A DNA stretch of 64,000 bases from Karstenula rhodostoma CBS 690.94 (taxonomy: Eukaryota > Ascomycota > Dothideomycetes > Pleosporales > Didymosphaeriaceae). The translations under genes and the position numbers were made by a program. The stretch lies in assembly GCA_010093485.1 (NCBI GenBank), contig MU001513.1, positions 75,696-139,695 on the forward strand. Reading direction: 5' to 3'. Positions 46,936-50,427 of this stretch are shown here, piece after piece. Every line of letters starts with the position of its first letter. Positions within the stretch are counted from its first letter, which is position 1. The notes under the pieces are model-generated. The model did no database searches. It was not told the origin of the DNA and saw nothing but the letters and a program-made list of their open reading frames with translations.

Positions 46936-49091
46936 CTACAACTCGTCGTGGCCAGCATCCTCGTCGCCACCCTCGCCACCAGCTCCGCCGTAAAGCTTCG
47001 AGGTGATGGGGTAGGCAACGTTGGAGAGCTTCTCGAACTGCTCGTCAAAGTCTTCCGTGACAGCCGAGGCGGCGTTCTCCTCAAGCCAATCCTGAGTCTC
47101 CTTGATGGCCTCGGTGATGGTCTCCTTGTCCTCGTCGTCGATCTTGCCGCCAAGACCATCGTCATCATTGACCTGGTTCTTGAGGTTGTAGGCGTAGTTC
47201 TCGAGCTTGTTGCGAGACTCAATGCGCTCGCGGGTGGCCTTGTCCTCATCGGCGTACTTCTCAGCCTCCTCAACCATGCGATCAATTTCCTCAGCGGAGA
47301 GACGGCCCTTGTCGTTTGTGATGGTGATGCTCTCGGCCTTGCCGGTGCCCTTGTCAACAGCGGAAACCTTGAGGATACCGTTGGCATCGAGCTCGAAGGT
47401 GACCTCGATCTGAGGAACGCCGCGAGGAGCGGGACTATATTCTCTTAGTGTCTGTTTGAAGCTGATTAAATGCGATGAGACAACTTACGGAATATTGGTG
47501 AGCTCGAACTTGCCAAGCTGGTTACTGTTGAGAAAAGTTAGCAACACGGGCTTTGTGGCGAGCACTCGATTGATGACGGTGAAGAACGTTTCGGTCTTTG
47601 GCCTGGTAGTTGCACGGTTCGCAGAATAGTCCACACCCATCGGCGACCACAGACTTGTGACGATTTATGGCAAGGTGTCTACCAAGGAGGGAGTTGGTGC
47701 CAAAACTCTTATCACAAGGGGTGCAGTGAAACCACTTGACTTTAACAGCCCGCTGTCGCTTCGCAAGAGTGTCGGGAATTTGCCTCCTAGAATTGGCACG
47801 GATCCTGGCGATGTACTGAGGAGTTTTGTTTACACGCTGCTTCTCATCGTAGGCTCTCTTCCATGCACGGCGATGTTCGAGGGCGAGCCTAGCCATTTCT
47901 TCCAGCTGCTCGGCGGTGAATTCAATGTTGTCTTTGCCGTTGATGACACCCTCAGTAAGGGGGTTGTGGGTGCAACAACCACTATGATTGTATGCGTTTC
48001 GAGGCCATGGTGCATCCGGGAACCCATAACGTGTGGTGACGTTGAGCATAGGCCAGAAGATAAGATGCATAGCAGCTTCCATAGCGACTATGGCAGTGCG
48101 GAATACCGGGACATCCTTTGCAGCAGGCTTGGGACACCAGGCCAGCAAGCATTCGTGGATTTGCACATAGCCGGCATTCTTTACAGCGCGAAGCCCTTCG
48201 GGTTCGACTTGGCGGCCTTTGTGTTGCAGGATACGGGAGCGAACACCACTCCTGGATGTTAAGGTCCCAGAGCCGACGTGGAGCTTGTACTGTTCACCCT
48301 TCTGGAGGACAAGCACGTACAGACCCCAACAGCGTGATGGTATATCAGAGGGAAGAGAGAGCAGCCATTCGATGGTAGGTGGTGTGCCAGATTGGATGAC
48401 GTCGAAAAGGCCGTCCACAAAGGTGAGACCGAGCTTGGGAAGGAGACCAGCGACATGATCAAATGAAGGGAAAAGAACGCGAAAGCGAGGAGCAATCCAG
48501 TACGTGACATTGATGCAAGCCCAGGTAAGGTGCACGATGAGTGCGTTGATGTTGGCGGCATCGTAGTTGGCCATACTCGCCCAGGTTGAGTGATTGAAGG
48601 TCGGAGGGAGAGAGTCGAGTGACTCGGTTTTGATGACATCGTGCCGGCAAGTGAGGAAGTCGCAATGGTTGTGGGTGTGACTTCCTCAACTCCGGGAGGG
48701 AAGGTGCGGCCATGCACCGACCAAAGACCGTCATGTTCGGGGGGAAACAGAAAACAGAAAAAAGAAAAAGTACTCACTTGTTTGAAGTCATGGAGCGTTC
48801 GCCTTCAAAGACCTGGATCAAGACCACGGGCTGGTTATCGGCAGCGGTAGAGAAGATCTGGCTCTTCTTGGTAGGGATAGTCGTACCACGCTTGATGAGG
48901 TGGGTCATGACACCACCAGTGGTCTCGATACCAAGGGTAAGCGGGTTGACGTCCATGAGAATGATATTACCAGTAGCCTCGTCACCAGCGAGAACACCAC
49001 CCTGAACGGCAGCACCGAAAGCGACAGCCTCATCGGGGTTAACGTCTTTGCGAGCCTTCTTTCCGAAGAACTCCTCGAGCATCGCCTGGAC

Positions 49092-49124
<33 letters not shown>

Positions 49125-50427
49125 GATGTCATCGATGTCGCTCTTCTTGAGCTTGGCGTCCTTGAGGACCTGCTCAACTGGCTTGAGGGTCTTCTTGAAT
49201 AGATCGGCGTTGAGCTCTTCGAACTTGGCGCGGGTGAGAGTCTCGGAGAAGTCCTCGCCCTTGTGGAAAGATTCGATCTCAATCTTGGTGGTCTTCTGGG
49301 AAGAAAGCGTGCGCTTGGCCTTCTCGACTTCGCGCTTCAGCTTCCCCATGGTCTTCGCATCCTTGGTGATGTCAACACCCTTGTCCTTGTTGTACTTCTT
49401 GACGAAATGGCTGATGACACGGTTGTCAAAGTCTTCACCACCAAGATGGGTGTCACCAGCGGTAGACTGGACCTCGAAAACGCCCTCCTCAATGGCTAAG
49501 ATAGACACATCGAAAGTACCACCACCAAGATCGTAGACAAGGACCTGGCGTTCCTTCTTATCGTCCTGCTTGTCAAGGCCGTAGGCGAGAGCGGCGGCGG
49601 TAGGTTCGTTGACCACGCGGAGAACATTGAGACCGGCGATGGTACCAGCGTCCTTGGTGGCGGCACGCTGAGCATCGTTGAAGTAGGCGGGGACAGTGAC
49701 AACAGCGTTCTTAACAGTCTCGCCAAGGTAGCTCTCAGCAACCTCTTTCATCTTGCCCAGAACCATGGCGGAGACTTCCTCGGGGGTGAAGGTCTTCTCC
49801 TCGCCTTGAACTTCGACCTGGACGCGGGGCTGGCCACTCTGCGGATAGCGTTAGCAGCTGGATTTTGAGAAGCAAGGCAGATTGCGTACCTTGGAGACAA
49901 CCTTGAAGGGGAAGTGCTTGATGTCGTTCTGGACATCCTTCTCGTTGAACTTGCGACCGATGAGACGTTTCTACCACGTCAGCTTCTACCCCGCGTGCAG
50001 GCCACAGACGGTACTCACGATATCGAAGATGGTTCGGTGGGGGTTGCTCGCGTACTGGTTCTTCGCGGCATCACCAACGAGGCGCTCCTCGTCGGTAAAG
50101 GCCACCCAGGAAGGCGTGATACGGTTACCTGTGGCCAAGTGGTCAGCTCCGTCCCATGATGCTCGGGCGAGATGTGTGCTTACCCTGGTCGTTGACCATG
50201 ATCTCGACCTTGCCGTTCTTCATGATACCAACACAAGAGTAGGTAGTGCCCAGATCGATACCAATGACAGGCCCAGTAATGCTGGTCGAGTCGTCGTCCT
50301 TGACGGGGACCTGGTCCTCAGCGCAGGCTGTCCGCGCCATCATCAGACCGCCCACGAGGACGAGGAGGAGGTAGAAGGCGATGCTCCATGTGGAGCGCCG
50401 GTCGGCGCCCCGCGATCGCCGCGCCAT
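46936..50427 (-). CDS. kar2: ER lumenal Hsp70 chaperone BiP/Kar2
   Basis: Six exons encode 676 residues, the normal length. The ATG at 50427 starts a signal peptide ([23 protein letters not shown]); an in-frame upstream ATG at 50508 adds 27 residues and is not needed. The ATPase domain shows [25 protein letters not shown] and [13 protein letters not shown]. The substrate-binding domain has [12 protein letters not shown] and [20 protein letters not shown]. The protein ends in the ER retention signal HDEL. BiP folds secretory proteins and regulates the unfolded protein response. Introns on plus coordinates are 47435-47488 (54 bases), 47525-48777 (1,253 bases), 49839-49889, 49971-50018 and 50129-50183. 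The giant intron splits an Asn codon in SMTSNNNQLGKF and contains a complete gene on the same strand. Exon 5, between it and the 54-base intron, is only 36 bases. Confidence 0.95.
47522..48574 (-). CDS. GIY-YIG nuclease-like protein with two C2H2 zinc fingers, nested in a BiP intron
   Basis: An intact 350-codon ORF lies inside the 1,253-base BiP intron in the same orientation. Residues 1-75 are a conserved-looking N-terminal region. Residues 82-175 form a GIY-YIG-like domain: GLYVLVL (GIY), KLHVGSGT (YIG, with His-Val for Tyr-Ile), Arg residues in [11 protein letters not shown] and a candidate catalytic Glu in [14 protein letters not shown] basic region (about 235-280) leads to two fingers: C284-x2-C287-x12-H300-x5-H306 and C318-x2-C321-x12-H334-x5-H340. 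The stop TAA is the first three bases of BiP exon 5, and the codons for the last residues contain the intron's branch site (CTAAC) and acceptor CAG. Similar GIY-YIG/C2H2 proteins occur as uncharacterised fungal nuclear genes (recollection, not searched). A homing endonuclease role is inference. It needs its own initiation, because exon 4 reads into a stop immediately. Confidence 0.82.
   Translation of the reverse strand: MANYDAANINALIVHLTWACINVTYWIAPRFRVLFPSFDHVAGLLPKLGLTFVDGLFDVIQSGTPPTIEWLLSLPSDIPSRCWGLYVLVLQKGEQYKLHVGSGTLTSRSGVRSRILQHKGRQVEPEGLRAVKNAGYVQIHECLLAWCPKPAAKDVPVFRTAIVAMEAAMHLIFWPMLNVTTRYGFPDAPWPRNAYNHSGCCTHNPLTEGVINGKDNIEFTAEQLEEMARLALEHRRAWKRAYDEKQRVNKTPQYIARIRANSRRQIPDTLAKRQRAVKVKWFHCTPCDKSFGTNSLLGRHLAINRHKSVVADGCGLFCEPCNYQAKDRNVLHRHQSSARHKARVANFSQQ
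47525..48777 (-). other. Giant ORF-bearing spliceosomal intron of BiP
   Basis: The donor AACAA/GTGAGT and acceptor TCTCAACAG/TAACCAG are ordinary spliceosomal signals, with branch site GCTAAC 17 bases before the acceptor. Joining them restores the highly conserved BiP reading [15 protein letters not shown]. The intron has about 203 bases of non-ORF sequence at its 5' end and none at its 3' end. All other BiP introns are 48 to 55 bases. Confidence 0.9.

Follow-up and report, generated by a model that had tools for sequence, protein, structure and literature searches.

The closest described counterparts of the element reported here are the spliceosomal homing introns (shintrons) named in mirusviruses in 2025 (PMC12768974), whose intron-borne endonuclease genes include 132 of the GIY-YIG type among 334; that paper states that such an association of intron and endonuclease was previously unobserved. 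Spliceosomal twin introns have been described as a class (PMC5639578), and ribosomal DNA (rDNA) introns without an endonuclease are treated in PMC11889510. Among the titles and abstract openings listed from a literature that takes in a minority of subscription papers and no bioRxiv preprints, none describes a homing endonuclease carried by a spliceosomal intron of a cell; there was likewise no relevant paper on the term 'shintron' beyond PMC12768974, and none that joins 'stwintron' with homing endonuclease. Here we describe a 64,000-nt stretch of contig MU001513.1 of the fungus Karstenula rhodostoma CBS 690.94 (the window), in which the gene for the Hsp70 chaperone BiP contains a large intron with a nuclease gene of its own. 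We consider it likely, with a probability of roughly 0.74, that this is a cellular spliceosomal homing intron, spread by its own GIY-YIG nuclease and with an ORF that later decays.

The BiP gene has five introns, of 55, 48, 51 (or, with other acceptors, 60 or 72), 1,253 and 54 nt. Excising all of them in silico yields a single BiP reading frame through HDEL, in agreement with the initial annotation, which had singled out one giant intron among short ones. The 1,253-nt intron starts with GTGAGT and ends with GCTAAC-N6-CAACAG. We take GCTAAC to be branch-point-like. With these signals and the restored frame the intron has the marks of the spliceosomal class, and 47525-48777 is presumably removed by the spliceosome. 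A group I or group II intron was ruled out for the same interval: an Rfam scan of 47400-48900, at E values up to 5, contained no group I/II signature or ribozyme core, its only match being a snoRNA under the gathering score (E 1.5). The intact same-strand ORF claimed from the outset is real: its 350 codons run from 48574 to 47525, the last of them (V A N F S Q Q) cover the branch point and the 3' splice site, and the stop TAA (47522-47524) is formed by the opening three bases of the next exon. When the intron was shuffled 2,000 times with first-order composition retained, the longest same-strand ATG ORF had a mean of 100 codons and a maximum of 327.

The initial annotation had also proposed a GIY-YIG-like domain, to be given up if residues 82-175 lay outside that fold. 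Fold comparison placed residues ~80-205 within the beta-beta-alpha-alpha-beta-alpha arrangement of GIY-YIG nucleases, the structural match to I-TevI being obtained with the relative P0033, not with the window copy. The active-site columns are conserved across the family, and the window copy keeps Y86, R114, H118 and E166, with Tyr99 replaced by His; the relative P0001 is one in which the active site is intact. Other routes gave little: Pfam did not report GIY-YIG in the window ORF, nor was it present among the 25 listed of 73 families that match the 93 rows (92 relatives and the window copy); a profile search of PDB sequences gave zinc fingers only, among 60 listed of 327 matches; and Foldseek against viral models brought up several endonucleases, GIY-YIG or intron-associated, at E 0.02-0.8 and nothing at or below 0.001. 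The two C2H2 fingers claimed earlier stand in part, one exceeding the Pfam cut-off (PF12171/PF12874, residues 316-341) and the second (282-303) falling under it with all four ligands present. Elsewhere in the genome Pfam reported one GIY-YIG match over the cut-off (C4:1900566-1900793, locus L002) and one weak match, neither of them the window ORF; the former is probably the repair nuclease SLX1.

A second intron links this element to a paralogue. The gene for the cytosolic Hsp70 (SSA), located on contig 3, is interrupted by a phase 2 intron at the residue that corresponds to the BiP site (TKDN^NLLGKF). At its donor this intron resembles a spliceosomal twin intron, with a 48-nt inner intron following the first G of the outer GTGAGT, which we would place in subclass [D1,2]. 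From base 1 onward the SSA outer intron matches the BiP intron at 84% of ungapped columns (126 matches in 164 columns), and the leader alignment reaches a local score of 131, where the best of 500 shuffles scored 30. Its last 63 nt are likewise identical to the end of the BiP intron at 46 positions with no gap, such that the SSA translation, VLHLHQSRERHKERLANLTQ followed by a stop, aligns with the end of the BiP ORF; within a 40-nt part of this end that excludes the splice signals, 30 positions match in register, compared with 20 for the next best placement. Since both intron ends match, the SSA intron is a deletion derivative that has retained the leader and the ORF end. Genome searches with the DNA of either intron found only the other. 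The two leaders (48624-48777 in BiP) share a hairpin of 28 consensus pairs, 7 of which differ between the copies and all of which pair, a two-sequence consensus favouring such pairs by construction; folding z-scores were -3.6 for the SSA block, -1.8 for the whole SSA intron and only -0.5 to -1 for the BiP leader.

Whether homologues of the nuclease fall inside conserved genes had been set as a check on the homing proposal, and they do. Three protein searches gave 31, 67 and 27 hits, corresponding to 92 distinct relatives, of which 12 are fused in gene models to seven host genes at eight sites. Because the 749-residue query of the third search restricted hits to long proteins (about 412-1311 residues) and so favoured fused models, this share is not a frequency. 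The partners are BiP (P0002 and P0005 from Alternaria, P0023 from Cladosporium, P0027 and P0028 from Elsinoe), cytosolic Hsp70 (P0034, Fusarium lateritium), aconitase at two sites (P0047, Zymoseptoria; P0069, Meristemomyces), arginine carbamoyl-phosphate synthase (CPS; P0070, Neonectria), GCN1 (P0077, Lachnellula), a DEAD-box helicase (P0078, F. nematophilum), in which both flanks of a helicase motif are kept around the nuclease, and pyruvate carboxylase (PYC; P0084, Oculimacula); P0036 is linked to cpa2 by name only. Among the BiP-joined models, P0005 and P0027 continue through the 3' junction as SNQLGKFEL, which is the insertion site of the window, P0023 and P0028 are compatible with that site, and P0002 resumes only at the following exon (PAPRG), so that its insertion site is not readable.

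In a tree of 87 rows (six short rows left out; bootstrap not fully settled), the window copy and the five BiP-joined relatives fall within one 29-row clade (100/100) that holds no row joined to another gene, the host gene being known for these six rows and not for the other 23. This is the pattern expected of target-gene specificity. Alternaria, Cladosporium and Elsinoe represent three Dothideomycete orders, and this distribution also bears on domestication, that is, on a formerly mobile nuclease that now resides in the BiP intron with a cellular role and is inherited vertically. We regard this as unlikely: relatives sit in seven unrelated host genes, the SSA copy has lost its ORF, and P0025, P0026 and P0027 of the BiP clade appear frameshifted (these may be model errors), none of which sits well with it, even though a single clade for the BiP-linked rows of Pleosporales, Cladosporiales and Myriangiales, a single protein copy in the genome, His at position 99 and an ORF still open in so old a lineage would all suit it.

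The exons around the two Hsp70 introns tell more about how the intron may have moved. BiP and SSA coding DNA is 64% identical over 364 codons and 46% identical at 113 fourfold sites. That the introns are more alike than the exons implies that the intron moved after BiP and SSA diverged, unless structure alone preserved the leader; such a transfer is read from the sequences, and its direction is presumed. Passive gene conversion between the two paralogues, with the nuclease gene a passenger and not the driver, would need no nuclease and would exploit the similarity of exon DNA at the site. It is nevertheless improbable, as no long tract accompanies a leader that is 84% identical, and it does not account for the relatives in six further genes, where seven sites are occupied. 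Third positions of same-residue codons are identical at 0.43 in the 20 upstream codons (14 used) and at 0.70 in the 12 downstream (10 used). At the junction itself the two genes have ACAA^TAAC..GCTTGG.AAGTTCGAGCTCAC in common, plausibly a shared nuclease target. Two other Hsp70 genes, presumably of mitochondrial and SSB type, have no intron at the homologous site, and their site DNA is more divergent.

We then compared the host sites of the relatives with the same genes of this genome, in which nine protein queries found one nuclease copy. The insertion point is uninterrupted, and without an intron, in CPA2 (MIN^YNPE), aconitase site 1 (EYH^GPG), PYC (GF^AG, with an ordinary intron a few codons past it) and GCN1. 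Three further sites have an intron at or close to the insertion point, none with a recognisable ORF: SSA (EFKRK^HKKDL), aconitase site 2 (GPCIG^QW) and the DEAD-box helicase gene. The comparison thus contains cases both of insertion into an exon that is uninterrupted here and of residence at an intron position held in common. At another position CPA2 has a 423-nt intron with an open stretch that best matches the zinc fingers of P0092 (31/53, E 2e-15), a decayed zinc-finger remnant from another branch of the nuclease family. It emerged from a tblastn search of the 92 relatives against nine loci; since the protein searches did not report it, further decayed relics may be missed. Where the helicase motif bears the nuclease in F. 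nematophilum, the DEAD-box helicase gene of this genome (locus L006, nt 2847 onward) has an intron region of ~300 nt with odd boundaries, in which no clear nuclease remnant was recognised.

Searches with two DNA queries found only the BiP and SSA introns in 44.3 Mb, at the same homologous site (these counts are lower bounds), and a multi-copy transposon is ruled out by this result together with the single nuclease copy. Insertion by transposition, as an introner or DNA-transposon-like intron with the nuclease as transposase, might be read from the homologous intron ends and a 12-bp inverted repeat in the SSA copy, and is highly improbable given two same-site copies in place of many dispersed similar introns, a repeat that is internal and not kept in BiP, and the fold of a homing nuclease.

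The homing interpretation thus draws on the ORF, its fold and catalytic columns, relatives in several conserved host gene models, the BiP/SSA transfer and ORF-deleted relics, the SSA homologue among them, all of these being features of sequence, and the initial proposal of a candidate homing intron is strengthened by them. In the cycle that we envisage, the host spliceosome would excise the intron, leaving BiP unharmed and the intron neutral, and the intron gene would supply a GIY-YIG nuclease that binds DNA through its C2H2 fingers. This enzyme would act on an allele that lacks the intron, or on a paralogue sharing the target, and cut it at the conserved exon junction; repair of the break from the intron-bearing copy would spread intron and gene jointly, separate branches of the family targeting separate conserved genes. 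After spread, internal deletion would decay the ORF to leave a short ordinary intron, the state now seen at SSA and CPA2 in this genome. Expression, splicing, cleavage, break-driven homing and the direction of transfer are the steps that we infer.

Several points weigh against this interpretation. With Foldseek alone no PDB match fell below E 0.001, and the window copy has no YIG tyrosine. The joined models are annotation artefacts known from protein models alone, and host context could be read for 12 of the 92 relatives, not for the other 80. No clear co-conversion tract was found beside the BiP/SSA site, where one was looked for. The BiP-site clade is old, spanning three orders, as it could also do after long vertical residence or domestication, and the three sites with an ORF-less intron suggest that ORFs may have entered pre-existing introns. 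Taken together, an old BiP lineage, no clear tract and His99 suggest that the window copy is late in its homing cycle, and it is rather doubtful that it still cuts DNA.

Coordinates of the BiP intron, its nuclease gene and the related introns (window positions unless stated)
Feature	Position	Strand	Remarks
Host gene BiP	46936..50427	minus	complete; product ends HDEL
BiP exons	50427-50184, 50128-50019, 49970-49890, 49838-48778, 47524-47489, 47434-46936	minus	
ORF-bearing spliceosomal intron of BiP, candidate homing intron	47525..48777	minus	GT-AG; BiP frame restored; no Rfam intron match
5' splice site GTGAGT	48772..48777	minus	homology with SSA intron begins at this base
Intron leader block (nt 1-154), common to SSA intron	48624..48777	minus	126 matches/164 columns, 14 gapped
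350-codon ORF, GIY-YIG nuclease with C2H2 fingers	47522..48574	minus	stop codon in downstream exon
GIY-YIG domain, about residues 79-203 (Y86, H99, G101, R114, H118, E166)	47966..48340	minus	fold comparison
Codon 99 (CAC, His), YIG tyrosine column	48278..48280	minus	Tyr in 90/92 ungapped rows
C2H2 finger 1 (C284 C287 H300 H306)	47657..47725	minus	below Pfam cut-off
C2H2 finger 2 (C318 C321 H334 H340)	47555..47623	minus	PF12171 over cut-off
Final 63 nt of intron and ORF, kept in ORF-deleted SSA intron	47525..47587	minus	46/63 identical, ungapped, in register
Candidate branch point GCTAAC, within ORF	47537..47542	minus	read from sequence
SSA intron, candidate twin intron (outer intron 226 nt)	contig 3 near 955793-956018 (locus L031:1228-1501)	minus	outer intron is ORF-deleted homologue of BiP intron
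CPA2 (arginine CPS) relic, 423-nt intron at TNYCY^TTYN	locus L017, nt 1087-1509 of reverse complement		

By what route genes acquire spliceosomal introns, and why related species share intron sites, are long-standing questions. A cellular homing intron, if correctly identified, would offer a route from nuclease cut through repair copying and ORF decay to an ordinary intron. Here a single genome holds the intron with its ORF in one gene, a clean deletion derivative of it at the paralogous site and, in a third gene, a decayed relic. More broadly, we favour, with some reserve, the view that filamentous fungi hold a large, old family of such introns, in which GIY-YIG/C2H2 branches each aim at the conserved motif of a different essential gene, and whose members cross between paralogues and species, lose the ORF and persist as short introns; homing would then go on supplying cells with spliceosomal introns. 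Such elements would direct attention to naturally occurring nucleases with site-specific action on conserved eukaryotic genes. An annotation problem also comes to light, the 12 fused relatives standing in public protein sets as Hsp70, aconitase, CPS, PYC, GCN1 or helicase models.

How, then, does the BiP intron compare with known systems? Group I GIY-YIG homing endonucleases such as I-TevI have a self-splicing carrier, whereas the fungal carrier is spliceosomal; unlike them, the fungal protein has C2H2 fingers as its likely targeting part, and in the window copy His stands in place of the YIG tyrosine. Homing genes inside nuclear introns also occur in rDNA group I introns with His-Cys enzymes, the subject of PMC9548176, but there the intron is a ribozyme, the host is rDNA and the nuclease belongs to a different superfamily. 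Introners are likewise a means of intron gain via mobile DNA (they are mentioned in PMC12768974), but have many dispersed copies, whereas the BiP/SSA intron has two same-site copies and encodes its own nuclease. Two pattern-based IMG/VR scans of viral contigs confirmed no viral relative of the nuclease. The initial annotation had supposed that a spliceosomal carrier would be a different kind of mobile element; the mirusvirus precedent of 2025 takes away part of its novelty. Mirusvirus shintrons (PMC12768974) likewise have spliceosomal signals and no group I/II signature, carry endonuclease genes that include GIY-YIG types and prefer conserved target genes. They reside in viral genes, whereas the present family resides in fungal nuclear housekeeping genes and differs in its C2H2 fingers, its ORF-deleted relics and its apparent transfer from paralogue to paralogue. 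The BiP intron is probably an element of this same kind, housed in the genome of a cell, an idea not wholly new, and would extend spliceosomal homing introns from giant viruses to cellular housekeeping genes.
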